Below, one piece after another: positions 1,024-23,771 of a stretch of 64,000 nucleotides of DNA (its first letter is position 1; the number at the start of each line of letters is the position of its first letter). The translations under genes and the position numbers were made by a program. Below the pieces are notes generated by a model, which saw only the letters and a program-made list of their open reading frames with translations, made no database searches and was not told the DNA's origin. This stretch comes from Streptomyces globisporus (GTDB lineage: Bacteria > Actinomycetota > Actinomycetes > Streptomycetales > Streptomycetaceae), in the NCBI GenBank assembly GCA_014649555.1, contig BMTG01000002.1:310001-374000 (forward strand), read 5' to 3'.

Positions 1024-3023
1024 CAGGCCCCCTCGGCGGCGTCCGGGCGGTCCGCGAAGGGGTCGCCGTGCACATAGCGCCCGAGTGCGGTGAGGGGGAA
1101 GACCTGGCGATAGAGGTGGTAGTTGATCGAGAAGTCCCAGGGGAATCCGGTGCCGGTGAAATACGGCTCGTCCCAGGAGCCGTCGGCCTGCTGCGCCTCG
1201 GTGAGCCAGGTGACGCCCCGGGTGACGGAGGCGGTGTCCCGGCGTCCCGCGGCGAGGAGGGCGAGCAGCGCCCAGGCGGTCTGGGAGGCGGTGGACTCAC
1301 CGTGCCCGATCCACTTCTCCTCCTGGTAGGAGCGCAGGTCCTCGCCCCAGCCGCCGTCGTCGTTCTGGACGGACTCCAGCCAGTCGACGGCCCGGCGGAT
1401 CGCGGGGTGTCCCACGGGCAGTCCGGCGGTGATCAGGGCGGGCACCACGGACCCGGTGCCGTAGACGTAGTTGACGCCCCAGCGGCCGAACCAGGCGCCG
1501 CACGCCTCCTGTTCGGCGAGCAGCCACTCGATGCCCTCGCGGGTACGGGGGTGTTTCGCGAGCCCCTCGACGGCGAGCATCTCCACGACATGGCCGGTGA
1601 CGTCGGCCGACGGGGGGTCGATGACCTCGCCGAAGTCGCAGAAGGGCAGCCTGTTGGGGAAGGCGCTGGTGTTGTCGGCGTCGAACGCGCCCCAGGCCCC
1701 GTTGCGGGACTGCATCCCGAGGTTCCAGCGGACCCCGCGGGCGATGGCGGCCTCCAGCCGGGCGGGGTCGGGGTGCCGCACCCGGCGCAGCGCCAGGACG
1801 ACCTCGGCGGTGTCGTCGATGTCCGGGTAGTTGTCGTTGTGGAACTCGAACGCCCAGCCGCCCGGGGCCAGTTCGGGTTTGCGGACCGACCAGTCGCCGG
1901 GTCTGGTGATCTCCTCGGCCAGCATCCAGTCGGCTGCCTTCACCAGGGCGGGGTGGTCGGGTCTCAGCCCGGCGTCGGCGAGTGCGATGGTGGCCAGGCA
2001 GGTGTCCCAGACGGGCGACTGGCAGGCCTCGATCATGCGGGCGCCGTCCTCGCGGAGGACGGCGAACCGGTCGAGCGAGGCCAGGCCCGCTTTCATCACC
2101 GGGTGGTCGAGGTCGTAGCCGAGGAGGTGCAGGGCGATGACCGAGTAGACGGCCGGCGGCTGGATCCCGCCCCAGCAGCCGTCGTTCTCCTGGCGTTCGA
2201 TGATCCAGCGGGCGGCCACGTTCATCGCGATACGGCGCAGCGGGCGCGGGGCGACCTTGTGGTAGAGGTGCAGCCCTTTGTCGAGGCGCTGGAAGAGTCC
2301 GTCCCAACTGGTGGGCGGGGCAAGCTTCCTGGGCGGGTTGGGGTGGTCCGGGTCGGTGTGCAGCTCGTCCAGGGCGAAGGGCGCGGGCCGTACGGGGCGC
2401 TTCGCGGAGACGATGGTGAGCGGCACGATGGTCTGCCGGGCCCAGCAGCCGAAGTCGTAGATGTTGAGCGGGACCCACTTGGGGAAGAACATCAGCTCGG
2501 GCGGGAGTTCGGGGAGGTCGTCCCATTTCCACCAGCCGAACAGGGCCAGCCAGATGCGGGTGAAGACGCGGGCGGCGGCGATGCCGCCCTGGTCCCGGAT
2601 CCAGCCGGAGGCGCGGGCCATGTGCGGTTCGTCGGGGCGGTCCCCGGCCAGCCGCAGGGCGACGTACGCCTCGATCGTGGCGGAGAGGTCGCCGGGTCCG
2701 CCGTAGAAGGTGTTCCAGGTGCCGTCGCCGAGCTGTTCGCCGCGGATGAAGAGGGCGGCGGCCCGGGTGGTCTCCGGGTCCTGGATACCGAGGAACTGGC
2801 GCAGGAGCAGGTCCTCGGCGTCCATCGTGACGTTGGTGGCGAGGTCGCCCTTCCACCAGCCCTGCTCGTCCTGTCTGCCGAGGAGGTGCTCCACGGAGCG
2901 TTCCGCGGCCTGCCGCGCGACGTCGGTGACATCGTTGGCGGCGGTTCTCGTGTCGGTCGGATCGTCGGCGGGGACCCCGGTGATGTTCGCGGCCCCGGTC
3001 GATCCGTCGGTCGTCGCTGTCAT
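1023..3023 (-). CDS. shc: Squalene-hopene cyclase
   Basis: Cyclises squalene to the pentacyclic hopene or hopanol at the membrane. The 666-residue length is typical. The catalytic acid motif DIDDTA is at residues 391-396, and several QW repeats are visible (QDEQGWW near 51, QENDGCWGG near 278, QSRNGAWGAF, QNDDGGWGE, QQADGSWDE near the C-terminus). The ATG follows AAGGGGAAGCTC, a good ribosome binding site. The gene is separated from the upstream polyprenyl synthase by 107 bases holding a 12-bp-arm hairpin, so it may not be expressed exactly like the genes before it. It overlaps hpnG by one base. Confidence 0.97.
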   Translation of the reverse strand: MTATTDGSTGAANITGVPADDPTDTRTAANDVTDVARQAAERSVEHLLGRQDEQGWWKGDLATNVTMDAEDLLLRQFLGIQDPETTRAAALFIRGEQLGDGTWNTFYGGPGDLSATIEAYVALRLAGDRPDEPHMARASGWIRDQGGIAAARVFTRIWLALFGWWKWDDLPELPPELMFFPKWVPLNIYDFGCWARQTIVPLTIVSAKRPVRPAPFALDELHTDPDHPNPPRKLAPPTSWDGLFQRLDKGLHLYHKVAPRPLRRIAMNVAARWIIERQENDGCWGGIQPPAVYSVIALHLLGYDLDHPVMKAGLASLDRFAVLREDGARMIEACQSPVWDTCLATIALADAGLRPDHPALVKAADWMLAEEITRPGDWSVRKPELAPGGWAFEFHNDNYPDIDDTAEVVLALRRVRHPDPARLEAAIARGVRWNLGMQSRNGAWGAFDADNTSAFPNRLPFCDFGEVIDPPSADVTGHVVEMLAVEGLAKHPRTREGIEWLLAEQEACGAWFGRWGVNYVYGTGSVVPALITAGLPVGHPAIRRAVDWLESVQNDDGGWGEDLRSYQEEKWIGHGESTASQTAWALLALLAAGRRDTASVTRGVTWLTEAQQADGSWDEPYFTGTGFPWDFSINYHLYRQVFPLTALGRYVHGDPFADRPDAAEGA

Positions 3024-3130: not shown

Positions 3131-4234
3131 TCATCTCTTGCGTACCACCACGAAATCGGCGAGCTCGGTGAGCTGCTCCCGCACCCGGTGGGGCATGTCG
3201 ACGGCGTGCAGCGCCTCGATGGCGATGGCGTGCTGACGACGGGCTTCCTGGGCGGTCCACTCGCGGCCGCCCGCTTCCTCGATGAGCGCCGCGCGGGCGG
3301 CGAACTCCTCTTCGGAGAAGCTGTCGAAGTCGTTGCTCTTGGCGTCGGCTGCGAGCAGTTCGCCGAGGCGCTCGGAGGCCTCGCCGCCCGCGGCGAGCGC
3401 GGCGACGACCGGCAGGGACTTCTTGCGCTGGCGCAGGTCGCTCCAGGTCTGCTTGCCGGTGGACTCCGGGTCGCCCCAGATGCCGAGCAGATCGTCGACG
3501 GCCTGGAAGGCGAGGCCGAGGTGGTAGCCGTACGCCTCCAGGGTGTCGGCGGTACGGTCGTCGGCGCCGCCGAGCACCGCGCCGATGGAGACGGCGCAGG
3601 CCAGCAGGGCGCCGGTCTTGTTGCCCTCCATCTCCAGGCACTCCTCGACGGTGACCCGCTCGCGGTGCTCGTAGGAGATGTCCTGGGCCTGCCCGTCGAT
3701 GAGCTTGCGGGTGGCGGTGGTCAGCCGGCGGGCCGCGCGGCCCGCCTCGACCGTGCCGAGCTCCAGCAGCAGGTCGTAGGCGAGGGCGAAGAGCGCGTCG
3801 CCGACCAGGATCGCCTGGGCGGGGCCGTGCACCTTCCATACGGTGTCGCGGTGGCGGCGCTGTTCGTCGCCGTCCATCAGGTCGTCGTGCAGCAGCGAGA
3901 AGTTGTGCACGAGTTCGACGGCCACGGCACCGGGAATGCCGGCCTCGGCCGGGGCGCCCGCCGCCTCGGCGGACAGCAGGGCGAGCGCGGGGCGTACGGC
4001 CTTGCCGCCGTCGCCGTCCGAGGGCCGGCCCTCGGCGTCGATCCAGCCGAAGTGGTACGCGGCGACGGTGTCCATGGGCGGCGCGAGCCGGTCCACGGCA
4101 GCCCGCAGGACCGGCGCTGACAGGGCTCGTCCGCGCTCCAGAAGCGCGGTGACGTCCGCGGTGTCAGCCACGGTGTCGAAAGCCGGATTCGCCGGGGTCA
4201 CAGACTCTCCTCTTGTTCCGGTGGTACTGCTCAT
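3131..4234 (-). CDS. Polyprenyl diphosphate synthase (farnesyl/geranylgeranyl type) of the hopanoid operon
   Basis: Condenses isopentenyl diphosphate with allylic diphosphates. The first aspartate-rich motif is DDLMD at residues 117-121 and the second is the VDDLLGIWGD region near residue 255; GGKAVRPAL near 75-84 binds the diphosphate. At 367 residues it fits short-chain actinobacterial synthases. The ATG at 4234 overlaps the hpnE stop as ATGA, which decides the start over in-frame upstream methionines. Its place in the operon suggests it supplies farnesyl diphosphate to HpnC/HpnD. Exact chain length cannot be read reliably from sequence alone. Confidence 0.93.
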   Translation of the reverse strand: MSSTTGTRGESVTPANPAFDTVADTADVTALLERGRALSAPVLRAAVDRLAPPMDTVAAYHFGWIDAEGRPSDGDGGKAVRPALALLSAEAAGAPAEAGIPGAVAVELVHNFSLLHDDLMDGDEQRRHRDTVWKVHGPAQAILVGDALFALAYDLLLELGTVEAGRAARRLTTATRKLIDGQAQDISYEHRERVTVEECLEMEGNKTGALLACAVSIGAVLGGADDRTADTLEAYGYHLGLAFQAVDDLLGIWGDPESTGKQTWSDLRQRKKSLPVVAALAAGGEASERLGELLAADAKSNDFDSFSEEEFAARAALIEEAGGREWTAQEARRQHAIAIEALHAVDMPHRVREQLTELADFVVVRKR

Positions 4235-5616
4235 GCCGCCTCCTGCAGCGGATGTCCTGGGGGGCGGCCGAGGTCGTGGAGGGCCGCGTCGGCGGCGGCG
4301 GCGCCGCTGCGCACGGCACCCTCCATCGTCGCGGGCCAGCCGGTGTCGGTCCAGGCTCCGGCCAGCTGGAGGCCGGGCAGCCGGGTGCGGGGGCCGGGGC
4401 GCAGCCGCCCGACGCCCGGGGCGGGCGCGAAGGTGGCGGTGCGCTCCCGGGTGACGAAGAAGTCGCGGATGCCCGCGCCACGGGCGGCGGGCAGGAGGCG
4501 CTCCAGCTCGGGCAGGTAGCGGGAGCGCAGTTCGGCGACGGGAAGGTCGATCTCGGCCTGGGCGGCCGACTGCGAGACGGCCAGATACTGCCCGGGGCCC
4601 TTGAGACCCGAGGAGTGGGTGCGGTCGAAGACCCACTGGACCGGGGAGCCGATCGCGGCGAAGAACGGCCTGCGCAGCACCTTGCGGTCGTAGATGACGT
4701 GCACGTTGAGGATCGGAGCGCATGCGATGTCGAGCAGCAGCTCCGGCTCGTCCAGCGCGCCCGCGGGCAGCAGGTCGTGGGTCTCGGTCTGCGGCACGGC
4801 CAGCACGACGGTGTCGGCGGTGATCCGCTCCCCCGCGCTCTCGACGCTCCAGCGGCCGTCCTCGGTGCGGGTGAGGGAGCCGACCTTGGCGCGCAGCTCG
4901 GTGCGGACGCCCGCGGTGTCCAGGGCCTTGCGGGCGAGGGTGTCGTGCAGGTCGCCGAGCGGGACGGTGGCCCAGCCGATGTCGGCGGCGCCGGGGTCGG
5001 AGAGCAGGCCGGTCTTGAAGACCTTCGCCGCGAGCGCCATGGAGGCGTCCGGGGCGGTGGCGTTCAGGGTGGCGACGCCGACGAGGTCCCAGAGCGCCTC
5101 GATGGCGCGCTCGGACTGGCCGTGCCGGCGCAGCCAGGTGGCGAAGTCGATCCGGTCCAGCTCGGGGTCGGCGGGGTCGAGGCGGCCGAGCGCGAGGGCG
5201 GCCCTGCCCACGGCCGCCTTCTCGGCGAGCGAGAGGTGCGGATAGGCGGCGAGGCCGCCCGCCAGGTGCAGCGGTACGGGCAGGGCGGTGCGGCGGATCC
5301 GTCCCAGGCGCGGCCCGGCGGCCCGGCCGACGTCCAGCACGGGCACGTCGAGGCGGTCCTGGAGCGGGGCCAGGTGCGCGGCGTCGATGCGGTCGAGGAA
5401 CCAGCGGTAGCCGGTGCAGCAGCGCAGGTAGACGTGCTGGCCGTTGTCGACGGTGAGGTCGCCGCGCTGGAAGGAGAAGGCGAGGCCGCCGAGACGGGGC
5501 CGGCCCTCCAGGAGGGTCACGTCGAGTCCGGCGTCGGCAAGGCGGAGCGCCGCCGTCACCCCGGCGAGGCCACCGCCGACGACGACCCCGACGGGGCGCG
5601 GGCTCTCGTCGCTCAT
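4231..5616 (-). CDS. hpnE: HpnE, FAD-dependent hydroxysqualene dehydroxylase
   Basis: Removes the hydroxyl from hydroxysqualene to give squalene, the third step of the HpnCDE route. The 461-residue protein begins MSDESPRP and has the Rossmann dinucleotide motif GGGLAG at residues 14-19, followed by the FAD-binding LLEGRPRLGG. The start at 5616 has GGGAGGGG upstream. An in-frame GTG at 5727 would add 37 residues, but that stretch has poorer third-position GC and precedes the Rossmann core. The start overlaps the stop of a 40-codon ORF (5613-5735) as ATGA. The end overlaps the polyprenyl synthase start. Confidence 0.93.
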   Translation of the reverse strand: MSDESPRPVGVVVGGGLAGVTAALRLADAGLDVTLLEGRPRLGGLAFSFQRGDLTVDNGQHVYLRCCTGYRWFLDRIDAAHLAPLQDRLDVPVLDVGRAAGPRLGRIRRTALPVPLHLAGGLAAYPHLSLAEKAAVGRAALALGRLDPADPELDRIDFATWLRRHGQSERAIEALWDLVGVATLNATAPDASMALAAKVFKTGLLSDPGAADIGWATVPLGDLHDTLARKALDTAGVRTELRAKVGSLTRTEDGRWSVESAGERITADTVVLAVPQTETHDLLPAGALDEPELLLDIACAPILNVHVIYDRKVLRRPFFAAIGSPVQWVFDRTHSSGLKGPGQYLAVSQSAAQAEIDLPVAELRSRYLPELERLLPAARGAGIRDFFVTRERTATFAPAPGVGRLRPGPRTRLPGLQLAGAWTDTGWPATMEGAVRSGAAAADAALHDLGRPPGHPLQEAA

Positions 5617-5735
5617 GCCTGCCCCTCCCGCCGGGTCGTGGCGCTCTGCCGGGTCCTCACCCTGCAGATCGTCGCAGTCAGTGACGCGTCGGGCCACCGG
5701 AAGGTTGTCCCGGGGCCGGAGGCGCACAGCCGCAT
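5613..5735 (-). CDS. Possible 40-residue protein bridging hpnD and hpnE
   Basis: An ATG overlapping the hpnD stop (TGATG) opens a 40-codon frame (MRLCASGPG...) whose stop overlaps the hpnE start as ATGA. It therefore fills the 118-base gap exactly and is coupled at both ends. Thirty-six of its 40 codons end in G or C (90%), against about 78% for the competing hpnE extension frame. It is basic, has two cysteines and no recognisable domain. It may be a real small protein, a coupling relay that carries ribosomes to hpnE, or chance in GC-rich DNA. Confidence 0.4.
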   Translation of the reverse strand: MRLCASGPGTTFRWPDASLTATICRVRTRQSATTRREGQA

Positions 5736-8020: not shown

Positions 8021-8806
8021 CTACTTGCCCGTCTCGCGCTCGTACGCCTTGAGGACTTCCTCGGTGGGGCCGTCCATCAGCAGCTCGCCCTTCTCCAGCC
8101 ACAGCGCGCGGTCGCAGGTGTCCCTGATCGACTTGTTGTTGTGGCTGACCAGGAAGACCGTGCCCGCCTCCTTGCGCAGCTCGCGGATCCGCTCCTCGGA
8201 GCGGATGCGGAACTTGCGGTCACCGGTGGCCAGCGCCTCGTCGATCATGAGGACGTCGTGATTCTTGGCCGCGGCGATCGAGAAGCGCAGCCGCGCCGCC
8301 ATGCCGGAGGAGTACGTCCGCATCGGCAGCGTGATGAAGTCGCCCTTCTCGTTGATGCCGGAGAAGTCGACGATCTCCTGGTACCGGGAGCGGATCTCGG
8401 CCTGCGTCATCCCCATGGCCAGACCGCCGAGCACCACGTTGCGCTCGCCGGTGAGGTCGCTCATCAGGGCCGCGTTCACGCCGAGCAGCGAGGGCTGGCC
8501 GTCGGTGTAGACATGGCCGGATTCGGTCGGCAGCAGACCGGCGATGGCCCGCAGCAGCGTCGACTTGCCGGAGCCGTTGGTGCCGATGAGGCCGATGGCC
8601 TCGCCGCGGTAGGCGGTGAAGGAGACACCGCGTACGGCGTGCACCTTCCGGACGCCCCGCGGTTCGCCCTTGCCGCGCCGCACCATGCGGCTCAGCGCGG
8701 CGGTGGCGCTGCCCCGGCCGCCGCCCGCGCCGTTGACCCGGTACACGATGTGCACGTCGTCGGCGATCACCGTGGGGATGCGCCCCTGCGCGTTGTCGTC
8801 AGCCAC
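8021..8806 (-). CDS. ABC-2 polysaccharide/teichoic-acid-type exporter, ATP-binding subunit
   Basis: Powers export of a lipid-linked glycopolymer or glycoconjugate. The 261-residue protein has Walker A GTNGSGKST at 75-83, signature YSSGMAARLRFS, Walker B LMIDEAL and the H-loop SHNN. The long segment before Walker A and the YSSGM signature are typical of the TagH/RfbE/KpsT group rather than of drug exporters. Its start overlaps the permease gene by eight bases. It is the last gene of the minus-strand cluster beginning at 15071 and is closed by the hairpin at 7975-8004. Confidence 0.92.
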   Translation of the reverse strand: MADDNAQGRIPTVIADDVHIVYRVNGAGGGRGSATAALSRMVRRGKGEPRGVRKVHAVRGVSFTAYRGEAIGLIGTNGSGKSTLLRAIAGLLPTESGHVYTDGQPSLLGVNAALMSDLTGERNVVLGGLAMGMTQAEIRSRYQEIVDFSGINEKGDFITLPMRTYSSGMAARLRFSIAAAKNHDVLMIDEALATGDRKFRIRSEERIRELRKEAGTVFLVSHNNKSIRDTCDRALWLEKGELLMDGPTEEVLKAYERETGK

Positions 8807-9728
8807 GGCCGTACCGCTCCTCCGCCTTCCAGAAGTACACGAATCCCACGACGCCCAGCAGCACGGCCCAGCCCAGCCCGGCGGCCCAGACGTGGTCCGG
8901 CAGGTTCTCGGAGCCGTACCCGTCGATCATGGCGAAGCGGACCAGGTCCATGTAGATCGCCGCCGGGTTGTACTGGAGCACGTCCGCGATCCAGGCCGGC
9001 TTGTCCTTCAGCATCACCGGGATGGAGAACATGACGCCCGAGGCGTACATCCAGGTGCGCATGATGAACGGCATCAGCTGGGCGAGGTCGGGGGTCTTGG
9101 AGCCGAGCCGCGCCATGACGAGGGCCAGGCCGGTGTTGAAGACGAACTGGAGAAGCAGGGCGGGGATCACCAGGAGCCACGACAGCGAGGGGTAGCTGCC
9201 GAAGATCACGGCGACCGCGACCAGCACGATCATCGAGAAGAGCAGCTGCTGGAGCTGCTGGAGCGAGAAGGAGATGGGCAGCGAGGCCCGGGGGAAGTGG
9301 AGGGCGCGGACCAGGCCGAGGTTGCCGGCGATCGACCGGACACCCGCCATCACCGAGCTCTGGGTGAAGGTGAAGACGAAGACGCCGGTGACCAGGAACG
9401 GCACGAAGACGTCGTGGGGGATCCCCTCCCTGGTCCCCAGGATCAGGCCGAAGATCAGGTAGTAGACACAGGCGTTCAGCAGGGGTGTGACCACTTGCCA
9501 CAGCTGGCCCAGTTTGGCCTGGCTGTACTGGGCGGTCAGTTTCGCCCGGGAGAAGGCCAGGATGAAGTGGCGTCGGCCCCAGAGCTGTCGCATGTACGCG
9601 AACAGCCCCGGCCGGGCGCCGCTCACGGTCAGGCCGTACTTGGCGGCCAGCTGGGCCGCGTCGAGGCCCTCGTCGGCGGACGGCGGGGTCCCGAGGGCTA
9701 CCCCACCGTCGCGGGTCGTCTCACTCAC
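8799..9728 (-). CDS. ABC-2 polysaccharide/teichoic-acid-type exporter, permease subunit
   Basis: Membrane channel partner of the ATPase that follows it. The 309-residue protein has a cytosolic N-terminus, then about six hydrophobic segments (from DVFVPFLVTGVFVFTF through LGWAVLLGVVGFVYFW), as in TagG/KpsM proteins. FSRAKLTAQYSQAKLGQLWQ before the first membrane segment is the usual interface region. The start is GTG with a weak GAGAG upstream. It sits about 100 bases after the GT2 gene and probably belongs to the same transcription unit, so its cargo is likely the product of that cluster. Confidence 0.92.
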   Translation of the reverse strand: MSETTRDGGVALGTPPSADEGLDAAQLAAKYGLTVSGARPGLFAYMRQLWGRRHFILAFSRAKLTAQYSQAKLGQLWQVVTPLLNACVYYLIFGLILGTREGIPHDVFVPFLVTGVFVFTFTQSSVMAGVRSIAGNLGLVRALHFPRASLPISFSLQQLQQLLFSMIVLVAVAVIFGSYPSLSWLLVIPALLLQFVFNTGLALVMARLGSKTPDLAQLMPFIMRTWMYASGVMFSIPVMLKDKPAWIADVLQYNPAAIYMDLVRFAMIDGYGSENLPDHVWAAGLGWAVLLGVVGFVYFWKAEERYGRG

Positions 9729-9829
9729 AAGTTGAAACTCTCGTCTTCACGCGCAGCCAGTCGCGGGCGCGGCTCAGGCGGACAGGTTCCGGAAAGAAAA
9801 TACGCCTCATGCTCTCAGAGGTAAGCGTC

Positions 9830-10714
9830 TCAGATGACCGGAGGTCGGCCCAGCCTCGTCAGCCGCCACACCGTACGCCACTTCATCGGGCGCCGGATTC
9901 CGCAAGGGGTGGTCCAGCCTTCCCGGAATCCGCCGAACCATGCATTCAGCGCCGGCCGGGACGGGCGCCTGACCAGGGTCAGCAGCAGCCAGACCCCCAG
10001 GTAGAGGGGGACCAGCGGGGCGGGCAGGTTCCGGCGGGCCAGCCAGACCCGGTTGCGGGCGACCATGCGGTGGTAGACCGCGTGCCGGGACGGAGCGGTG
10101 GTGGGGTGGTTCAGCACCAGGTCGGCGCGGTAGTCGATCATCCAGCCCGCGTCCAGCGCCCGCCAGGCGAGGTCCGTCTCCTCGTGGGCGTAGAAGAAGT
10201 CCTCCGGCAGCGGGCCGACCTCGGCGATGACCCTGGTGCGTACGGCGTTGGCACCGCCCAGGAACGTCGTGACGCGCGAGGAGCGCATCGGGTCGGCGGC
10301 TCGCAGCCGGGGCACGTGCCGGCGCTGGGTGGCACCGGTGTCCGGGTCGGCGATGCGGAAGGAGACGATCCCGAGCTTCGGGTCCGCCTCGAAGGCCTGC
10401 CGGCACAGCTCGGCGGTGTCCCGGTTCGGGAGCAGCCCGTCGTCGTCCAGGAAGAGCAGCGCGTCCACGTCCGCCCCGCACGGGCCGAACGCCTCGATGC
10501 CGACGTTGCGGCCGCCTGGGATGCCCCGGTTCTCGGGCAGCTCCACCGTGCGCACCCCGGCGGGCACCTCGGGTACCGGGGCTCCGTTGCCGACCACCAC
10601 GACCTCGATCCGGTCACCGTGCTGGGCGGTGACCGAATCGAGGAGGGCGCGGAGCTCGTCCGGGCGGTTGCCCATGGTGATGATCACCGCACCCAGTTTC
10701 ATGGGAAGGGTCAC
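9830..10714 (-). CDS. Family 2 glycosyltransferase
   Basis: Transfers a sugar from a nucleotide sugar to an unknown acceptor at the inner face of the membrane. The 294-residue protein shows the GT-A core GAVIITMGNRPDELRALL, the metal-binding LFLDDDGLL and an acceptor-side FFYAHEETDLAWRA, as in rhamnosyl/galactofuranosyl-type GT2 enzymes; LVPLYLGVWLLLTLV is a possible membrane-associated segment. I chose the GTG at 10714, which overlaps the preceding stop as GTGA and has AGCAGG upstream; ATG at 10702 has no ribosome binding site. The sugar and acceptor cannot be read from sequence. Confidence 0.88.
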   Translation of the reverse strand: MTLPMKLGAVIITMGNRPDELRALLDSVTAQHGDRIEVVVVGNGAPVPEVPAGVRTVELPENRGIPGGRNVGIEAFGPCGADVDALLFLDDDGLLPNRDTAELCRQAFEADPKLGIVSFRIADPDTGATQRRHVPRLRAADPMRSSRVTTFLGGANAVRTRVIAEVGPLPEDFFYAHEETDLAWRALDAGWMIDYRADLVLNHPTTAPSRHAVYHRMVARNRVWLARRNLPAPLVPLYLGVWLLLTLVRRPSRPALNAWFGGFREGWTTPCGIRRPMKWRTVWRLTRLGRPPVI

Positions 10715-11490
10715 TTCAGCCTGCTGGACGCCAGGACGGACACCAGGTGCAGCAGGGTCTGCAGCAGCGCGATGCCGGCCATGACCGCCACGGTCAGGCG
10801 GGTGTAGAAGAGATCGCCCGCGATCGCGTCCACCACGGCGACCACGAGGATCACCAAAGACGCCTCGATGCCGAGGATCAGCCGGTGGAACTTGAGCGCG
10901 GCGGCGGCCTTGCGGGCCAGCGCCATGCCGGAGGAGCGCGGCTCGGAGGCCGCTTCCTTCACCGGCGGCAGCCCGCCCTGGTGACGGGCCACGCCCACCA
11001 GGTCCGTCTCGGCCTTGATCAGGATCGCGCCGAGCGCGGCGAGCGTCCCGAGGAACGCCCAGAGCCAGTCGATCCGCCCCTCGCCCCAGATGTCGGCGGC
11101 CCGCAGGCCGAGGCCCACCAGCACCGCCGCGTCGCACAGATAGGCCGCGACGCGGTCGAGGTAGACCCCGCTGAGCGAGTACTGCTTCTTCCAGCGGGCC
11201 AGTTCGCCGTCCACGCAGTCGAAGAGCAGGTAGAGCTGGACCATCACCACGCCGAGCACGGCGCCCCAGACGCCCGGCACCAGCAGCGCGGGGGCGGCCA
11301 GCGCGCCGGCCAGCGTCATGACGTACGTGACCTGGTTCGGCGTGACACGGGTGTTGACCAGGTAGCGGTCCACGCGCAGCGAGACCTCGCGCATGTACAT
11401 GCGCCCGGCCCAGTGCTCGCCGCTGCGCCGGTCCTTCACGCCCGGAGGGTGAACGACCGGACGGAGTTCAGCTACTGATGGTCGTCGCAT
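10711..11490 (-). CDS. CDP-alcohol phosphotransferase family membrane protein with altered last motif residue
   Basis: The family moves an alcohol-phosphate group from a CDP-alcohol to a second alcohol within the membrane. The 259-residue protein has several hydrophobic segments. Its signature reads D91-C-V-D94-G95-E-L-A98-R99, eight residues, G108-V-Y-L-D112-R-V-A-A116. The fourth aspartate of the family motif (D-X2-D-G-X2-A-R-X8-G-X3-D-X3-D), the proposed catalytic base, is alanine here; the next aspartate is D120. It overlaps the preceding dehydrogenase gene by 23 bases. It may be a divergent enzyme, act with the larger homologue at 13251-15071, or be non-catalytic. Confidence 0.85.
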   Translation of the reverse strand: MRRPSVAELRPVVHPPGVKDRRSGEHWAGRMYMREVSLRVDRYLVNTRVTPNQVTYVMTLAGALAAPALLVPGVWGAVLGVVMVQLYLLFDCVDGELARWKKQYSLSGVYLDRVAAYLCDAAVLVGLGLRAADIWGEGRIDWLWAFLGTLAALGAILIKAETDLVGVARHQGGLPPVKEAASEPRSSGMALARKAAAALKFHRLILGIEASLVILVVAVVDAIAGDLFYTRLTVAVMAGIALLQTLLHLVSVLASSRLK

Positions 11491-12529
11491 AGTCGGCGTA
11501 CGCGTCCCTGATCTGGTCGGTGGACAGGTTGAGGTGCTCCAGGACCGTGAAGCGTCCCGGACGCGTCTGCGGCGCGTAGTCGACGGCCTTGACGAACTCG
11601 TCGACGCTGAACCCGATCTCCTCCGGCAGGACCGGCAGACCGTGGCGGCGCAGTATCGATGCCATCAGGAGGGACTCCTGGCGGGCACCGCGCAGATGCA
11701 TGGCGAAGCAGGCGCCGAGGCCGACCTGTTCGCCGTGGCTGGCCGCGCGCTGGGGGTAGAGCAGGTCGAAGGCGTGGTTGATCTCGTGGCAGGCGCCGGA
11801 CGCCGGGCGCGAGTCGCCCGCGACCGACATCGAGATGCCCGTCAGCACGAGTCCTTCGGCCAGCACCTTCAGGAAGGCGTCGTCGCCGACGCCGCCCGGG
11901 TGGCGCAGCACGGCCTCGCCGGCCTGGCGGGCCATCGCGGCCGCGAGCCCGTCGATCTCCTCGCCGTTGACCTCGTGGGCCAGCTCCCAGTCGGCGACGC
12001 AGGAGATGTTCGAGACCGCGTCGCCGATGCCGGAGCGGACGTAGCGGGCGGGCGCCTCACGGATCACGTCGAGGTCGATGACCACGGCGATCGGGGTGGG
12101 GACCCCGTAGGAGCCGCGCCCGTTGTCGTTGTCCAGCGTGGCGACCGGCGAGCACAGGCCGTCGTGCGAGAGGTTCGTCGCGACGGCGACCATGGGCAGC
12201 CCGACCCGCGCCGCGGCGTACTTCGCCACGTCGATGATCTTGCCGCCGCCGAGGCCCACCACCGCGTCGTACCGGTTGCCCTTGATGCCGTCGGCGAGCT
12301 TCACCGCGGAGTCGATCGTGCCGTCGGCGACCGGATACCAGTCGGCACCGGGCAGGACCGGAGCGAGCCTCTCCTTCAGGGCGCGCCCCGAGCCGTCGCT
12401 GATCGCGATGGCGAGCTTGCCCGAGGAGGAGATCCGCTGATCGGCCAGGAGACCCGCCAGATCGTCCATGGCGCCGCGTCGGATGTCGACGACGACCGGG
12501 GACGGAATGAGCCGGGTCAGTACTGGCAC
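11468..12529 (-). CDS. sn-Glycerol-1-phosphate dehydrogenase-like enzyme (iron-containing alcohol dehydrogenase superfamily)
   Basis: Family members reduce dihydroxyacetone phosphate to sn-glycerol-1-phosphate with NAD(P)H and a bound metal. The 353-residue protein has the nucleotide-binding GLGGGKIIDVAKYAA (about 92-106). Metal ligands expected for the EgsA/AraM group are seen: D170 in SGIGDA, H248 in SRPASGACHE, and H265 in SHGEQ. The SRP-SG signature separates it from general alcohol dehydrogenases. It starts with GTG, overlapping the nucleotidyltransferase by 13 bases. Neighbours suggest that its product is nucleotidyl-activated and then transferred. Exact substrate is inferred. Confidence 0.82.
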   Translation of the reverse strand: MPVLTRLIPSPVVVDIRRGAMDDLAGLLADQRISSSGKLAIAISDGSGRALKERLAPVLPGADWYPVADGTIDSAVKLADGIKGNRYDAVVGLGGGKIIDVAKYAAARVGLPMVAVATNLSHDGLCSPVATLDNDNGRGSYGVPTPIAVVIDLDVIREAPARYVRSGIGDAVSNISCVADWELAHEVNGEEIDGLAAAMARQAGEAVLRHPGGVGDDAFLKVLAEGLVLTGISMSVAGDSRPASGACHEINHAFDLLYPQRAASHGEQVGLGACFAMHLRGARQESLLMASILRRHGLPVLPEEIGFSVDEFVKAVDYAPQTRPGRFTVLEHLNLSTDQIRDAYADYATTISS

Positions 12530-13254
12530 GCGATCTCCCGGCCCTTCTTCAGGTCCTCGTGGTTGTCGATCTCGACCCAGGTCACGGTGCCGATGGGGGC
12601 CACGTCGACGGTGAAGCCGCGGTTCACGAGCTCCTGGTAGCCGTCCTCGTAGTAGAGGTCGGGGTCGCGCTCGAAGGTGGTCTTCAGCGCGTCCGCCAGC
12701 TCCTCGGCGGCCTCGGCCTCGATGAGGGTGACGCCGATGTACTCACCGGTGGCGGTAGCCGGGTCCATCAGCTTGGTGATGCGCTGAACGCCCTTGCCCT
12801 CCTCGGTGATGACCTTCATCTCCTCGTCGGCGAGCACCTTCTCGGTGTCCAGGGCGAGGATGATCTTCTGGCCCTTGCCGCGGGCGTCCAGGAGGGTCTT
12901 CTCGACGGAGACCGGGTGCACGGTGTCGCCGTTGGCGAGGATCACGCCGCGCTTGATGACGTCACGGGCGCACCACAGGGAGTAGGCGTTGTTCCACTCC
13001 TCGGCCTTGTCGTTGTCGATCAGCGTGAGGCTGAGGCCGTAGGTGGCCTCCAGCTCGGCCTTGCGGGCGTAGACGGCCTCCTTGCGGTAGCCGACGACGA
13101 TCGCGACCTCGGTGAGTCCGACCTCGGCGAAATTGGCCAGCGTGAGGTCGAGGACCGTCTTGTCGCCGTCGACAGGGACGAGCGCCTTGGGGAGCGTGTC
13201 CGTGTAGGGGCGCAGACGTCGTCCTGCACCGGCTGCCAGTACGAGGCCGATCAT
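12517..13254 (-). CDS. Sugar/polyol-phosphate nucleotidyltransferase
   Basis: Activates a phosphorylated sugar or polyol with a nucleotide, probably CTP given its two CDP-alcohol phosphotransferase neighbours. The 245-residue protein has the N-terminal signature LAAGAGRRLRPYTDTLPKAL (about 6-25), with the conserved R and K, and the metal-binding ILANGDTVH near residue 100. It resembles the cytidylyltransferase half of IPCT-DIPPS enzymes. The ATG at 13254 overlaps the previous stop as ATGA, which fixes the start. The base and substrate are inferred from context. Confidence 0.87.
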   Translation of the reverse strand: MIGLVLAAGAGRRLRPYTDTLPKALVPVDGDKTVLDLTLANFAEVGLTEVAIVVGYRKEAVYARKAELEATYGLSLTLIDNDKAEEWNNAYSLWCARDVIKRGVILANGDTVHPVSVEKTLLDARGKGQKIILALDTEKVLADEEMKVITEEGKGVQRITKLMDPATATGEYIGVTLIEAEAAEELADALKTTFERDPDLYYEDGYQELVNRGFTVDVAPIGTVTWVEIDNHEDLKKGREIACQY

Positions 13255-15071
13255 GCGAGTTCTCCTTCGTCGTGTACGGCGGGCGCCGAGGAGGACACCC
13301 AGAAGCGGATGGACTCCACGAGCACCACCAGAGCCACGGCGACCGCGAGCGCGGTCAGGGCCGTGGTGAAACCTGCGGCGTGGGTGAGTACGGCGGCGAG
13401 GACGGCCACCAGCGCGGTACGGCCCTCGTGTCCACCGATCGTCCGCACCAGCCACTGGGGCGGCGCGCCGGTGCCTCCGCGGATGCGGTACACCGTGTCG
13501 TAGTGATGGTAGGCGACGGCCGAGATCAGCCCGAAGGCTGCCGGAACGGCGTGCGGGGCGTCGCTGCGGGCCGCCAGCACGAGGATCGTGACGTACTCCG
13601 CCGCCCGGAAGAACGGCGGCACCAGCCAGTCGAGCGCGCCCTTGAGCGGGCGGGCGACGGCGAGGCCGGAGAGGACGACGTACACCGCGGCGGCGGCGAC
13701 GGTGAGCCAGCTGCCGTAGGGGAGGAAGAGGGCCCCGCCGATCATGACGAGCGTGCCGAGCAGGGCGACGGCAGGAGCCGTGAACGCGCCCCGGAGTCCG
13801 GGGGCGACCGCCGCCACACCCTGGGCGAGGGGCCCGGAGTCGGCGAGGTCCGCGAGGGCCTGCGCGGCGCGGTCGGTACGGCTGGCCCGGCGGGTCAGCG
13901 AGCGCAGCAGGCGACCGGCGGTGGTGTAGCAGGCGGCCAGGGAGCAGCCGATGAGCAGGGCGTAGAAGACGATGCGCGGGGTGGTGAGCGCGGTGAGCAC
14001 CGCGATCATGGCCCAGCGCTCACCGATCGGCAGCACGATCATCCGGCGCGCCCAGACCGTCCAGCCGACGCTGTCGAGTTTGTCGGAGAGGGCGGCGGTG
14101 GGGCTGGTGTTGGCGACCGCGTCGTGGTTGGCCTCGTTGAACGAGAAGTCGACGACATGGCGGCAGGCCTGGAGGACCATCGCGCCGAGTGCCAGGACCC
14201 AGACGTCGTCACCGCCGCGTACGGCCCCGATGGCGAGCCCCGCGTAGTACGCGTACTCCTTGGCCCGGTCGAAGGTGGCGTCCAGCCAAGCGCCCATCGT
14301 GGAGTACTGCAGCGAGTAGCGGGCGAGCTGCCCGTCGGTGCAGTCCAGCACGAAGGAGAACAGCAGCAGGATCCCGGCGGCGACGTAGCCGCCGCGGGTT
14401 CCGGTGGCCGCCGCGCCCGCCGCGATGAGCGCGGTGATCAGGGACGCGGTGGTGACCTGGTTCGGGGTGAGGCCGCGGCGGGCGCACCAGCGGGCGATGT
14501 AGCGGGAGTACGGGCTGATGGCGAAGGTGGTGAAGAAGCCGTCGTGGGCCTTCACCGCGCTGCGCAGCCGGACCGCCTCGTCGTCGACCTCGGCGCGGGC
14601 GCTCTCGGCGGTCGCCCGCGCTCCGCCGTCGGTGGGGACGGTGGCGGTGAGCGATCCCAGCTCGGGGCGCTTGACGGCGGTGCCCTCGGCCTCCAGCGCC
14701 ACGGCGATCCGGCCGGGGACGGTGCGGTCATCGGGCGCCGGGTCGGTGTCCGGGGCGCCCGCGCCGGCGGCGGCCGTGGTGCGCCGGAGCGCACGCAGCA
14801 GGGCTCCGCGCGCCTCGGGCTGGGCGGTGAGGGCGCCGGGCACGGTGGCGGCGGCGAAGCGGGGGTCGGTCAGGCCGAGCCGCAGCGCGTGGACGTGGCC
14901 GACGAAACGCGGATCGACGAGGGCGACCCTGCGGCCGGCCGGGACGGCGGCGAGGAGGGTCGCGGCGTCATCGGCGTCGGCGGCGGTCTGCACGTCGAAG
15001 CCCAGGGACCGCAGATCGTCCGCGAGCGACGACCCGGGTACCGGCGTACCGGTGAGGATGGCGGTCGACAG
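13251..15071 (-). CDS. Large multidomain CDP-alcohol phosphotransferase (probable DUF5941 C-terminus), likely CTG start
   Basis: About 606 residues. The N-terminal ~175 residues look like a soluble nucleotide-sugar-type domain (VALVDPRFVGHVHALRL); then a full CDP-alcohol phosphotransferase motif, D-C-T-D-G-Q-L-A-R with G-A-W-L-D-A-T-F-D, keeps all four aspartates (about D243, D246, D264, D268); then a long membrane region. The ribosome binding site AAGGAG at 15081-15086 is nine bases before an in-frame CTG at 15071, and the frame STAILTGTPVPGSS from it looks coding. The first GTG, at 14993, lacks any ribosome binding site. It is the first gene of the minus-strand cluster and overlaps the nucleotidyltransferase start. 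Confidence 0.85.
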   Translation of the reverse strand: MSTAILTGTPVPGSSLADDLRSLGFDVQTAADADDAATLLAAVPAGRRVALVDPRFVGHVHALRLGLTDPRFAAATVPGALTAQPEARGALLRALRRTTAAAGAGAPDTDPAPDDRTVPGRIAVALEAEGTAVKRPELGSLTATVPTDGGARATAESARAEVDDEAVRLRSAVKAHDGFFTTFAISPYSRYIARWCARRGLTPNQVTTASLITALIAAGAAATGTRGGYVAAGILLLFSFVLDCTDGQLARYSLQYSTMGAWLDATFDRAKEYAYYAGLAIGAVRGGDDVWVLALGAMVLQACRHVVDFSFNEANHDAVANTSPTAALSDKLDSVGWTVWARRMIVLPIGERWAMIAVLTALTTPRIVFYALLIGCSLAACYTTAGRLLRSLTRRASRTDRAAQALADLADSGPLAQGVAAVAPGLRGAFTAPAVALLGTLVMIGGALFLPYGSWLTVAAAAVYVVLSGLAVARPLKGALDWLVPPFFRAAEYVTILVLAARSDAPHAVPAAFGLISAVAYHHYDTVYRIRGGTGAPPQWLVRTIGGHEGRTALVAVLAAVLTHAAGFTTALTALAVAVALVVLVESIRFWVSSSAPAVHDEGELA

Positions 15072-16335: not shown

Positions 16336-16370
16336 GCTCTGACCTGCGGAACGTTTCCGCAGGTCAGAGC
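16336..16370 (+). terminator. Strong hairpin after the GalE-like gene
   Basis: A perfect 16-bp stem (GCTCTGACCTGCGGAA and its complement) with a three-base loop CGT. No U tract follows. It separates the epimerase from the CDF transporter on the same strand. Confidence 0.85.
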
Positions 16371-16483
16371 ATATGACAACGGTGTTCAGTCCCGTGTTGC
16401 CCGATACCCCCCACCCGTAGTTCACTGGGCCTGGCCGGGGTGGTTCCGCCCCGGCACGTCCTACGGACCTGGAGGCGTTTCGC

Positions 16484-17425
16484 ATGGGGGCTGGCCACGA
16501 TCACGGGCATACGCACGGCGGGCCGCCCCCGACGGGAACGGCGGCCGCCGCGTACCGGGGAAGGCTCCGGATCGCCCTGGGGATCACCCTGAGCGTGATG
16601 GTCATGGAGATCGTCGGCGGGATCCTCTCCGACTCGCTCGCGCTGATCGCGGACGCCGCCCATATGGCCACCGACGCCCTGGGGCTCGGGATGGCGCTGC
16701 TCGCCATCCACTTCGCCAACCGCCCGGCCGCCCCGAACCGCACCTTCGGCCTCGCCCGCGCGGAGATCCTGGCCGCGCTCGCCAACTGTCTGCTGCTGCT
16801 CGGCGTGGGTGCCTACCTGATTTTTGAGGCGGTGGAGCGGTTCATCACCCCGGCCGAGACGAAGGGCGGGCTCGCCATCGCGTTCGCCGCGGTCGGCCTG
16901 GTGGCCAACGTCGTCTCCCTCTCGCTGCTGATGCGCGGGCAGAAGGAGAGCCTGAACGTGCGGGGCGCCTATCTGGAGGTGATGGCCGACACGCTGGGCT
17001 CGATCGCCGTGATCGTCTCGGCCGGGATCATCATGGCGACCGGCTGGCAGGCCGCCGACCCGATCGCCTCGCTGGTGATCGGCCTGATGATCGTCCCCCG
17101 GACGGTGAAGCTGCTGCGGGAGACCCTGAACGTGCTGCTGGAGGCCGCGCCCAAGGGGGTGGACATGGCGGAGGTACGGGCCCACATCACGGCCCTGCCC
17201 GGGGTGCTGGACGTCCATGATCTGCACGCCTGGACGATCACCTCGGGGATGCCGGTGCTCTCCGCCCATGTGGTGGTGCGCCAGGAGATGCTCGACTCGA
17301 TAGGGCACGAGAAGGTGCTGCACGAGCTGCAGGGCTGCCTCGGGGACCACTTCGACGTGGAACACTGCACCTTCCAGCTGGAGCCGAGCGGTCATGCGGA
17401 GCACGAGGCCCGTCTCTGCCACTGA
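16484..17425 (+). CDS. Cation diffusion facilitator (CDF) metal exporter
   Basis: Proton-coupled efflux of divalent metal, probably zinc. The 313-residue protein has a histidine-rich N-terminus (GHDHGHTHGG), six hydrophobic segments and a cytosolic C-terminal domain. The metal site shows H60-X3-D64 in the second membrane segment and E165-X3-D169 in the fifth, where classical zinc CDFs have H-X3-D; the E form is, from memory, common in actinobacterial members. GGAGG precedes the ATG. A hairpin at 17435-17453 closes the gene. No metal regulator lies next to it. Confidence 0.92.
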   Translation: MGAGHDHGHTHGGPPPTGTAAAAYRGRLRIALGITLSVMVMEIVGGILSDSLALIADAAHMATDALGLGMALLAIHFANRPAAPNRTFGLARAEILAALANCLLLLGVGAYLIFEAVERFITPAETKGGLAIAFAAVGLVANVVSLSLLMRGQKESLNVRGAYLEVMADTLGSIAVIVSAGIIMATGWQAADPIASLVIGLMIVPRTVKLLRETLNVLLEAAPKGVDMAEVRAHITALPGVLDVHDLHAWTITSGMPVLSAHVVVRQEMLDSIGHEKVLHELQGCLGDHFDVEHCTFQLEPSGHAEHEARLCH

Positions 17426-17434
17426 GCGAGGGGG

Positions 17435-17453
17435 CGGGGGTGCCGCACCCCCG
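17435..17453 (+). terminator. Terminator hairpin after the CDF gene
   Basis: CGGGGGTG, CCG, CACCCCCG: an eight-bp stem with a three-base loop, followed by the pyrimidine-rich GCTCCTTCCTC. Confidence 0.7.
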
Positions 17454-17539
17454 GCTCCTTCCTCACCTCCCGGGCTTCCGGGCCAGGTCCGTTCTTCCCC
17501 GGATCGGGCTCGGAGCCCTCTCACGCAAGGGTTTCCACG

Positions 17540-18064
17540 TTGACCGACCACATCGACCCCAGGTGGAGCACCCGTCCGGAGACCCCGGCGGACCGTGCGG
17601 CCGTGCACGGCGTCAACGCGGCCGCGTTCCCCACCCGGGACGAGGCGGACCTCGTGGACGCCCTGCGGGCCGACCCCGAGGCGTGGCTGCCGGAGCTGAG
17701 TTACGTCGCCGAGGCCCCGGACGGGTCCCTCGCGGCGTACGCGCTGCTGACCCGCTGCCGGGTCGACGACGCTCCGGCACTCGCCCTGGCCCCGGTGGCC
17801 ACGGTCCCCGCGTACCAGCGGCAGGGTGCGGGGCTGGCCGTGGTGCGGGCGGTGCTGGACGCCGCCCGGGTGCGTGGTGAGGCGCTGGTGCTGGTGCTCG
17901 GTCATCCCGAGTACTACCCGCGCTTCGGTTTCGGTCCGGCCTCGCGCTACGGGATCCGGCCAGGTTTCGAGGTGCCGGACGAGGCGATGATGGCGCTGGT
18001 ACTGGACGATTCGGTTCCTGTTCCGGCGGGCCTGATCCGTTATCCGGCGGCCTTCGGCGTCTGA
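17540..18064 (+). CDS. GNAT family N-acetyltransferase (YhbS-like)
   Basis: Transfers an acetyl group from acetyl-CoA to an unknown amine. The 174-residue protein has the central strand APVATVPAYQRQGAGLAVVRAVL, containing the Q/R-X2-G-X-G/A CoA-binding loop, and the YhbS-type tail GHPEYYPRFGFGPASRYGI. It starts at TTG with AAGGG upstream. It stands alone between two terminators or promoters, and nothing in the neighbourhood points to a substrate. Confidence 0.88.
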   Translation: MTDHIDPRWSTRPETPADRAAVHGVNAAAFPTRDEADLVDALRADPEAWLPELSYVAEAPDGSLAAYALLTRCRVDDAPALALAPVATVPAYQRQGAGLAVVRAVLDAARVRGEALVLVLGHPEYYPRFGFGPASRYGIRPGFEVPDEAMMALVLDDSVPVPAGLIRYPAAFGV

Positions 18065-18211
18065 CGGCCCGTCCGTCCCGCCGCGTTCGCAGGGCGTGGC
18101 GGGCCGGACATGCCCGGCCCCGGAGTGCGGACAAGGGGCTTTTGTACGGCAGACTTGACCGGACTCCAGGGGCCCGGCGCACGAGGCCGGGGACCAAAGC
18201 GAAGGATGGGT

Positions 18212-18805
18212 ATGCCGACCACACCAGCCACCGCGACGCACAGCTCGTCGAACGGCACCGCAGAAGCGATCATGCTCGAACTGGTCGACGAGAACGGCAC
18301 CACCATCGGCACCGCGGAGAAGCTGGCGGCCCACCAGGCCCCCGGGCAGCTGCACCGCGCGTTCTCCGTGTTCCTCTTCGACGAGCAGGGGCGGCTGCTG
18401 CTCCAGCGCCGGGCACTCGGCAAGTACCACTCCCCCGGCGTCTGGTCGAACACCTGCTGCGGACACCCCTACCCGGGCGAGTCCCCGTTCGCGGCCGCGG
18501 CCCGGCGTACGTACGAGGAGCTGGGCATCTCGCCGTCGCTGCTCGCCGAGGCGGGCACCGTGCGCTACAACCACCCGGACCCTACGTCGGGCCTGGTGGA
18601 GCAGGAGTTCAACCACCTGTTCGTGGGAATGGCGCAGGCGGCGCTGAAGCCGGACCCCGAGGAGGTCGGTGAGACCGCCTTCGTGACGGCGGCCGAGCTG
18701 GAGAAGCGGCACGCCGACGGGCCGTTCTCGGCGTGGTTCATGACGGTGCTGGACGCGGCGCGGCCGGCGATCCGTGAGCTGACGGGTCCCTCCGCGGGCT
18801 GGTGA
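18212..18805 (+). CDS. idi: Isopentenyl-diphosphate delta-isomerase, type I
   Basis: Interconverts isopentenyl and dimethylallyl diphosphate in the cytosol. The 197-residue protein has the Nudix-like fold with catalytic C83 in SNTCCGHPYPGE, the metal/acid site in ARRTYEELGI, Y119 in VRYNHPDP, and glutamates 130 and 132 in VEQEFNHLF. The start at 18212 has GAAGGA five bases upstream; an ATG six bases earlier is too close to it. It lies about 10 kb from the hopanoid operon, whose polyprenyl synthase uses its products. Confidence 0.96.
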   Translation: MPTTPATATHSSSNGTAEAIMLELVDENGTTIGTAEKLAAHQAPGQLHRAFSVFLFDEQGRLLLQRRALGKYHSPGVWSNTCCGHPYPGESPFAAAARRTYEELGISPSLLAEAGTVRYNHPDPTSGLVEQEFNHLFVGMAQAALKPDPEEVGETAFVTAAELEKRHADGPFSAWFMTVLDAARPAIRELTGPSAGW

Positions 18806-19457: not shown

Positions 19458-20081
19458 CTACTTCTGCTCGTCTTCTGCTGGCGTGATCGGCTCGTCCGCG
19501 GTCGGGACCGTTTCATCGAGCCGCTCCGAGACCATGCTGACGATACGTCGGCCGCCGATGCCGATGGCGATCAGGCCGAGTCCGTCGAACAGCAGGGCCA
19601 GCGAGAAGAAGCAGCCGAGCACGTACAGGCTGCTGTGCGGCCAGTCGAACAGCACCAGCAGGCCCAGCAGCAGGCCGAAGGCCCCCTGCAGCAGCGTCCA
19701 CCCCATCTGCGGGCCGCGCACCACGACGCTGCCGACGAGCCGGAAGACCCCGCCGGTCAGGAAGAGCAGGGCGGCGAACATGGTCAGCGCCTCGGCCGTG
19801 CCCTCCGGGTGCTTGATGACGACGACGCCCGCGGCGATGTTCAGGGCCGCGACCACCACCCCCAGCCAGAAGTAGCTCGTGCCGCGCGACTCGATCGCGT
19901 GCAGCAGCCCGACCAGACCGCCGACGAGCAGCAGCCAGCCGAAGAGCAGCATCGAGGTGAGGGTGGCCACGCCGGTGTAGATGAGCCCGATGATGCCCGC
20001 GATCACCAGCAGCGTGCCGAGCAGCGCCAGCCAGCCGAAACTGCGGCTGAGCTTCCTGCCCTCGGCGGTGGGTCCGTTCAT
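19458..20081 (-). CDS. HdeD-like membrane protein (DUF308)
   Basis: A 207-residue protein with about six hydrophobic segments in three pairs and short polar loops, the pattern of the HdeD/DUF308 family, which is linked to acid resistance in enterobacteria. The C-terminal 35 residues are polar and acidic (ERLDETVPTADEP). GAGGAG lies seven bases before the ATG. It is divergent from the enoyl-CoA hydratase gene, with only 80 bases between them. Function in Streptomyces is unknown. Confidence 0.85.
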   Translation of the reverse strand: MNGPTAEGRKLSRSFGWLALLGTLLVIAGIIGLIYTGVATLTSMLLFGWLLLVGGLVGLLHAIESRGTSYFWLGVVVAALNIAAGVVVIKHPEGTAEALTMFAALLFLTGGVFRLVGSVVVRGPQMGWTLLQGAFGLLLGLLVLFDWPHSSLYVLGCFFSLALLFDGLGLIAIGIGGRRIVSMVSERLDETVPTADEPITPAEDEQK

Positions 20082-20148
20082 CGACAGCTCCTCACGGTGC
20101 GTGCCTGCCTGGCGACCCCTTCTTGATCATAGGTTCGAACCGTGGGGA

Positions 20149-20154
20149 TAGCAT
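20149..20154 (+). promoter_or_regulatory. -10 box of a probable leaderless transcript (enoyl-CoA hydratase)
   Basis: TAGCAT ends seven bases before the ATG at 20162, with no ribosome binding site between. TTGATC at 20123 is a possible -35, at a long 20-base spacing. Confidence 0.5.
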
Positions 20155-20161
20155 CCGGCGC

Positions 20162-20926: not shown

Positions 20927-20931
20927 GCCCT

Positions 20932-23571: not shown

Positions 23572-23771
23572 CCGGGGCCGGCCCCGGCACCGCCCGGGAC
23601 CCCGCGCACCACGTCGGGGGCTCCCGGGCGTGTTGCCCGAGGTCACGCGACACGGCCCCCGGCCACGCGGCACAATGCAGGCCGGGGGATGCCCCCGGCA
23701 AGCAACAACGTGCTCATCACGACCCGAGCACGGCCAGCACAGCCAGTACGAGAAGGCGAGTCGGGAAAACC

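Follow-up and report, generated by a model that had tools for sequence, protein, structure and literature searches.

The question raised by the locus described here is how Streptomyces species may make cytidine diphosphate glycerol (CDP-glycerol) without TagD of the Bacillus subtilis wall teichoic acid (WTA) pathway (TagO/A/B/D/F/GH, LCP). TagD (TIGR01518) was detected at E<=1e-20 in 0 of 150 sampled Streptomyces genomes. A polyglycerolphosphate lipoteichoic acid (LTA) exists in the genus, where LtaS has been reported missing, and the LTA and WTA of Streptomyces hygroscopicus are reported to be nearly identical in structure (PMC3196553). The candidate considered here is a cluster of seven genes in a 64,000-nucleotide stretch of Streptomyces globisporus DNA (the window; contig BMTG01000002.1, positions 310,001 to 374,000). 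This cluster is quite likely a module for a teichoic-acid-type glycopolymer, and its best full explanation, which is on balance probable, is a teichoic acid module running on CDP-glycerol derived from sn-glycerol-1-phosphate (G1P). The genes are the following:

13251..15071, minus strand: AP1, with PF01066 and PF19365 (DUF5941) in Pfam
12517..13254, minus strand: NTP, a COG1213/LicC/IPCT-like nucleotidyltransferase (PF00483)
11468..12529, minus strand: DH, an EgsA/AraM glycerol-1-phosphate dehydrogenase-like protein (PF13685/PF00465)
10711..11490, minus strand: AP2, a CDP-alcohol phosphotransferase relative (PF01066)
about 9830..10714 (start approximate), minus strand: GT2, a family 2 glycosyltransferase (PF00535)
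8799..9728, minus strand: Wzm/TagG-like ABC-2 permease (PF01061)
8021..8806, minus strand: Wzt/TagH-like ATPase (PF00005)

Neighbouring ends show short overlaps throughout, except between GT2 and Wzm. The genes lie where the initial annotation had placed them, and both Pfam and NCBIfam agree with the family names given there; among the matches listed, no curated NCBIfam model for a named function is matched above its cut-off by any of the seven.

Gene order and conservation

Conservation was followed in the best 80 of 488 loci encoding a relative, which come from Streptomyces except for L042 (Kitasatospora), L072 (Streptomycetaceae) and L092 (Streptosporangium), the closest named relatives being S. 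globisporus, S. parvus and S. anulatus, among others. The seven-gene order is identical in all 80, with GT2 unmatched in L083 and with at least one gene matched incompletely (under 85% of its length) in 14 loci, partly at contig ends. DH was found in every one of the 150 sampled Streptomyces genomes, and at E<1e-60 in 72 of 296 genomes of the class, comprising 28 Streptomyces and 44 genomes from eight further families; the next match, fragments in G362 aside, has an E-value of 8e-22.

A lack of conserved gene order beyond close relatives had been named as refuting the initial interpretation, but such an order does recur there. It was followed in 29 non-Streptomyces loci encoding DH, a count that includes two loci from outside the class (L101, L102) and excludes two without DH (L103, L104) and second copies in Streptomyces (L142-L144). 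The order AP1..NTP-DH-AP2-GT2 is present in 17 of them, 12 with a four-Asp AP1 and five with a degenerate one. NTP adjoins DH in 27/29 by script, the exceptions being L136, a gene-picker artefact, and L139, which has no NTP; AP2 directly follows DH in 20/29, GT2 directly follows AP2 in 20/29, and both Wzm and Wzt lie within the locus in 12/29. Neighbour genes in relatives' loci were called by a simple open-frame picker, with rough starts and lengths, and the name of each neighbour cluster rests on a Pfam scan of one or two representatives.

Some variants of the arrangement have also been observed. At L129:9355-11868 and L130:9377-11854, NTP-DH precedes a four-Asp CDP-alcohol phosphotransferase of a third type, unmatched by the AP1 and AP2 profiles, while at L133:5457-11253 the pair lies near a GlfT2-like galactofuranosyltransferase and Wzm/Wzt, hinting that the same CDP-polyol is used in a galactan-type polymer. 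Within the closest loci, DH is about 83% identical to that of the window in L059, L067, L068, L076, L082, L084 and L099, as against 90-93% in other loci with equal similarity in their remaining genes, so inheritance inside the cluster appears to be mosaic.

Teichoic acid context and exporter

The context of the cluster is teichoic acid, not hopanoids. Among the 29 loci, LCP-type genes occur in 17, polymerase-type clusters c12/c16/c23 in nine, IspD/TarI-plus-SDR genes in nine and GDPD in seven. Scanned representatives of c12 and c23 match PF04464 (TagF-like), with c16 matching GT2 only, and PF04464 matches lie inside loci L117, L123, L124, L126, L128, L132, L134 and L138. Comparisons of TagD, PF04464, HpnC, PcrB and PF03808 were made on a panel of 80 genomes picked from the 296 of the class, 40 with DH (8 of the 28 Streptomyces and 32 of the 44 others) and 40 without; left out among the DH-bearing genomes were five less than 90% complete, G354 and, to keep the panel at 80, G355, G368, G377, G459, G467 and G553. 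PF04464 at E<1e-50 is found in 39/40 genomes with DH versus 4/40 without it, the numbers at E<=0.001 being 39/40 and 13/40. All four DH-bearing genomes of family f76 have strong matches and its DH-less genome none; in f7 the DH-bearing genome is strong, one DH-less genome has no match and two others match less well (E about 1e-28 and 1e-31); of the two DH-bearing genomes of f81, one is strong and the other has none, with weak matches only in the DH-less; and f94 is a counter-example, where a genome with DH and one without it both have strong matches. Among 61 Streptomyces, PF04464 at E<=1e-50 was found in 56.

The cut-off for TagD was passed by none of the 80 panel genomes. Scores on TIGR01518 stay at or below 68 bits in all 40 genomes with DH and reach 109-165 bits in three of those without; the Streptomyces look-alike scores higher as a heptose adenylyltransferase domain.

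The exporter points in the same direction as these neighbours, having a paralogue in the TagF locus of its own genome (ATPase 76% and permease 63% identical), which adjoins a TetR gene and several TagF-like genes. Wzt is also below the cut-off of the galactan exporter model, and its paralogue fails both this cut-off and that of TagH; Pfam shows ATPase-type domains only, with no match to a C-terminal carbohydrate-binding domain. The paralogue belongs to what is seen as the main teichoic acid locus (L153 and L154, contig C9), where four GT2-PF04464 proteins confirmed by Pfam and one more PF04464 copy lie with TetR, TagG and TagH. A tagR-tagG-tagH arrangement has been published for S. roseosporus, where the phenotypes of tagG loss were read by the authors as WTA deficiency (PMC10269677). 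The TagGH exporter family is common to both systems; that arrangement, however, corresponds by gene order to the L154 paralogue and not to the seven-gene cluster. The viability of the S. roseosporus tagG mutant could be explained by a second exporter like the one described here.

Predicted enzymes and pathway

The metal ligands proposed for DH (D170, H248, H265) are present and widely kept among 113 relatives, with D170 in 110 (Glu in the other three) and both histidines in all, as is the cofactor motif GGG (G94-G96). Its solved relatives are 3ce9, 4rgq/4rgv, 4rfl, 5fb3 and 9h4x; 3ce9 was deposited as a glycerol dehydrogenase, and the other best matches are G1P dehydrogenases (G1PDHs). The motifs S-x-P-x-SG and (H/N)DG are common to DH and these structures, along with the three ligands. 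Immediately ahead of the second metal-ligand position (the first His), DH and its relatives have Cys in 95/113 and Asp in 18/113, against Glu in the two aligned solved relatives.

Among solved structures, NTP is closest to 1jyk, a CTP:phosphocholine cytidylyltransferase, followed by 4jd0, and no match to PF01467 (CTP_transf_like, the TagD family) was found for it in the Pfam scan. Two motifs read off alignments to solved relatives, LAAGxGxRLxPxTxxxPK and N-x-AYS, are both present in 81/81 sequences (the window and 80 relatives) and, at other loci, in 31/31 and 28/31, respectively. A further motif, W.EIDN..DL, occurs in 81/81 Streptomyces-type sequences but in only 2/31 others. NTP is probably a CTP:glycerol-1-phosphate cytidylyltransferase, CTP being cytidine triphosphate.

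AP1 is composed of three parts:

about residues 1-163: degenerate cytidylyltransferase-like domain
about residues 176-395: CDP-alcohol phosphotransferase domain, four-Asp motif intact
about residues 400-606: DUF5941

By eye, the N-terminal domain is devoid of the LAAGxGxRL signature. The four-Asp motif that had been attributed to AP1 (DxxDGxxARx8GxxxDxxxD) was recovered in 71/71 sequences (the window and 70 relatives) and is mostly kept in other lineages, with loss in one (L119, L121, L125, L127, L141). The start of AP1 at 15071 (15069-15071) is a CTG codon with AAGGAG just upstream in the window. CTG is present in all 74 of the 80 relatives' loci that could be matched to residue 1, and an in-frame stop lies three codons upstream in 73 of those 74, so this start is probably correct though not ATG, GTG or TTG, and it is apparently conserved genus-wide.

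In AP2, the fourth Asp, the proposed catalytic base, is replaced by Ala in the window. Ala occupies this position in 63/81 sequences (the window and 80 relatives) and His in 18/81, while outside Streptomyces His is found in 20/21 and Ala in 1/21. Three Asp and a His are retained in the five loci where the AP1 motif is lost, and for this reason AP2 is probably no dead remnant. Two forms, Ala+Asp and His+Glu, alternate among close relatives with similar flanking genes (L033 and L034 versus L035-L037), as if swapped like serotype alleles. The nearest solved structures to both phosphotransferases are AF2299 (4o6m) and IPCT-DIPPS, the fold match of AP2 being 4o6m. At L155:7787-9155, a PF01467 cytidylyltransferase-like gene overlaps another CDP-alcohol phosphotransferase, which scores best, below the cut-off, on an archaetidylinositol-phosphate synthase model.

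Taking these families and their context together, we infer a pathway in which the substrates, the stereochemistry, the acceptor and the way AP1 and AP2 share the work are predictions. DH would convert dihydroxyacetone phosphate to G1P, and NTP would couple G1P to CTP, giving CDP-glycerol of sn-1 configuration; the chances of this step taking place in the cluster appear evenly balanced. AP1 and AP2, as membrane enzymes, would then transfer a phosphoglycerol unit to an acceptor in the membrane, probably a sugar linked to an isoprenoid or glycolipid, GT2 would glycosylate the acceptor-bound product, and Wzm/Wzt, the TagGH paralogue, would export it for attachment to the wall or retention on lipid. 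Where a genome encodes TagF-like polymerases, this CDP-glycerol would probably supply chain growth as well, replacing TagD. In B. subtilis, WTA is built on sn-glycerol-3-phosphate and LTA on sn-glycerol-1-phosphate, the latter from phosphatidylglycerol (PMC7086022), and TagF-like capsule polymerases of Actinobacillus have been reported to accept glycerol of either handedness when given racemic CDP-glycerol in vitro (PMC8262930). A single polymer shared by LTA and WTA would be accounted for by CDP-(sn-1)-glycerol in the cytoplasm. It may be suggested, tentatively, that actinobacterial teichoic acids, whether of the wall, lipid-linked or both, are built on G1P and that AP2, in which three of the motif Asp are kept, is a base-independent CDP-alcohol phosphotransferase initiating the polymer; its nucleophile, for instance an isoprenyl phosphate, would require no base, and the polymer would start in a manner akin to a phosphoglycosyl transferase.

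Competing explanations and known systems

Several observations weigh against a G1P-based teichoic acid module. The co-occurrence of DH and PF04464 partly follows phylogeny, its counts being uncorrected for kinship; one genome with DH (G376) has no PF04464 match; and Pfam finds no PF04464 polymerase within the seven genes, six copies lying elsewhere in the own genome. The five of the 61 Streptomyces that have no PF04464 at E<=1e-50 all carry DH, so the cluster cannot feed TagF alone, and this retention indicates that it probably makes a product of its own. Four genomes without DH have strong PF04464 matches, and in two of the four, G319 and G320, TIGR01518 gives nothing above 40 bits; still other sources of CDP-polyol must therefore exist. 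Given the TarI-like genes in nine loci, some of the polymers may be ribitol-based. Wzt reaches 173.6 bits on the NCBIfam TagH model, with a cut-off of 320, and DH 234.1 bits on NF002022, the G1PDH equivalog, with a cut-off of 413. DH is thus labelled "G1PDH-like" and not as that equivalog, and another ketose phosphate is possible as its substrate. A pathway of the same type in which DH reduces another keto-sugar phosphate, so that the wall polymer is made from a CDP-polyol other than CDP-glycerol, would account for this shortfall and for the Cys or Asp found in the DH clade where the two aligned solved relatives have Glu, and COG1213 cytidylyltransferases are reported to use varied substrates, phosphoglycerate included (PMC12275187). 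It is nonetheless unlikely, considering that G1PDHs and 3ce9 are the best solved matches of DH, sharing its motifs and ligands, and that polyglycerolphosphate is among the structurally known Streptomyces polymers (PMC3196553). Somewhat unlikely, too, is a role in making LTA or, for teichoic acids, the linkage unit or the anchoring lipid (primer), and not the main-chain supply. The WecG/TagA family (PF03808) is unmatched in 8/8 Streptomyces and 17/32 other panel genomes with DH though S. coelicolor has tagO (PMC7300013), so the cluster is a candidate for the missing linkage-unit machinery; it brings a GT2, membrane phosphotransferases and an exporter of its own, DH is kept even in the five Streptomyces with no strong TagF gene, and LtaS, as noted, is reported missing. 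Nevertheless, a PF03808 gene is present in 15/32 of the other genomes with DH (it is unmatched in 27/40 without DH), and NTP-DH pairs occur without AP1, AP2 or GT2 beside GlfT2-like (L133) or TagF-like (L134) genes.

A lipid tied to hopanoid-rich membranes, as proposed in the initial annotation, is very unlikely. The cluster does lie between hopanoid genes (downstream) and a GalE-like epimerase (upstream), with hpn genes adjacent in the window and crtB within a syntenic Streptomyces region reported elsewhere (PMC13118837), but the link is local to Streptomyces: HpnC passes its cut-off in 8/8 Streptomyces, in only 4/32 of the other genomes with DH and in 8/40 of those without, and hopanoid families are absent from the shared neighbours of 34 clustered loci within the scanned representatives. 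What stands of that annotation's interpretation is a CDP-polyol route that begins with a G1PDH-like step and an exported, probably anionic polymer; teichoic acid takes the place of the hopanoid context. Family membership of DH would also fit an archaeal-type ether lipid as in the AraM-PcrB system of Bacillus, where PcrB is the user of G1P. This is extremely improbable: PcrB passed its cut-off in 0/80 genomes, with three weak matches, all in genomes lacking DH, and positive controls from Bacillus subtilis and archaea, and no prenyltransferase lies within the seven genes. A soluble phosphodiester solute, such as di-inositol phosphate or glycerophosphoinositol, is highly doubtful as well; AF2299 and IPCT-DIPPS are the nearest solved structures of AP1 and AP2, but the exporter, GT2 and teichoic acid neighbours argue against it. 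HpnD and HpnC also lie downstream of the cluster, together with these genes:

1023-3023: squalene-hopene cyclase
within 3131-4723: polyprenyl synthase
4231-5727: amine-oxidase-type flavoprotein

Elsewhere in the window, long open frames with no Pfam match at E<=1e-6 occur on the minus strand at 16364-18712, 20078-20965 and 23643-25814.

The proposed G1P-based module shares with the B. subtilis WTA pathway a CDP-polyol precursor and a TagGH-like exporter, with TagF-like polymerases elsewhere in the genome and, in relatives, LCP genes next to the cluster. It differs in that the genomes searched have no TagD over the cut-off, a G1PDH-like dehydrogenase and a COG1213-type cytidylyltransferase being present instead, and in having two relatives of CDP-alcohol phosphotransferases that are integral to the membrane; no Tag counterpart of these is known to us. 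When compared to IPCT/DIPPS (4mnd) and AF2299 (4o6m), a cytidylyltransferase-like domain is likewise fused to a CDP-alcohol phosphotransferase in AP1, with both sequence and fold matches, but the signature is missing from this domain, NTP, apparently the active enzyme, is encoded separately, and DUF5941, an exporter and GT2 are added. DH resembles the AraM/EgsA G1PDHs in sequence, metal ligands and cofactor glycines, yet it falls below the curated cut-off and is paired with a cytidylyltransferase rather than with PcrB. The glycerol stereochemistry predicted for the cluster is opposite to that of B. subtilis WTA, built on sn-glycerol-3-phosphate (PMC7086022).

A 2026 paper lists a syntenic Streptomyces region (crtB, tagH, tagG, araM and others) under teichoic acids (PMC13118837), which is the same Streptomyces locus by gene names; its available text gives these names only, with no mention of the absence of TagD, the wider gene order, the AP2 motif, stereochemistry or mechanism. 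Orthologues of G1PDH have been reported in Actinobacteria by Coleman et al., who cite an older suggestion that GGGPS enzymes of Firmicutes serve teichoic acid synthesis (PMC6431249). No proposal linking DH to teichoic acid supply was found in the openly searchable literature, subscription papers lying outside this search.

The cluster constitutes a concrete candidate answer to how Streptomyces make CDP-glycerol without TagD, and it exposes, in AP2, a subfamily of CDP-alcohol phosphotransferases without the catalytic Asp. If the proposal is correct, the wall polymer would consist of mirror-image (archaeal-form) glycerol phosphate, and bacterial G1P dehydrogenases would gain a role beyond archaeal-type lipids. 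The step concerned is a core one for the cell envelope of Streptomyces, soil bacteria that are major antibiotic producers.

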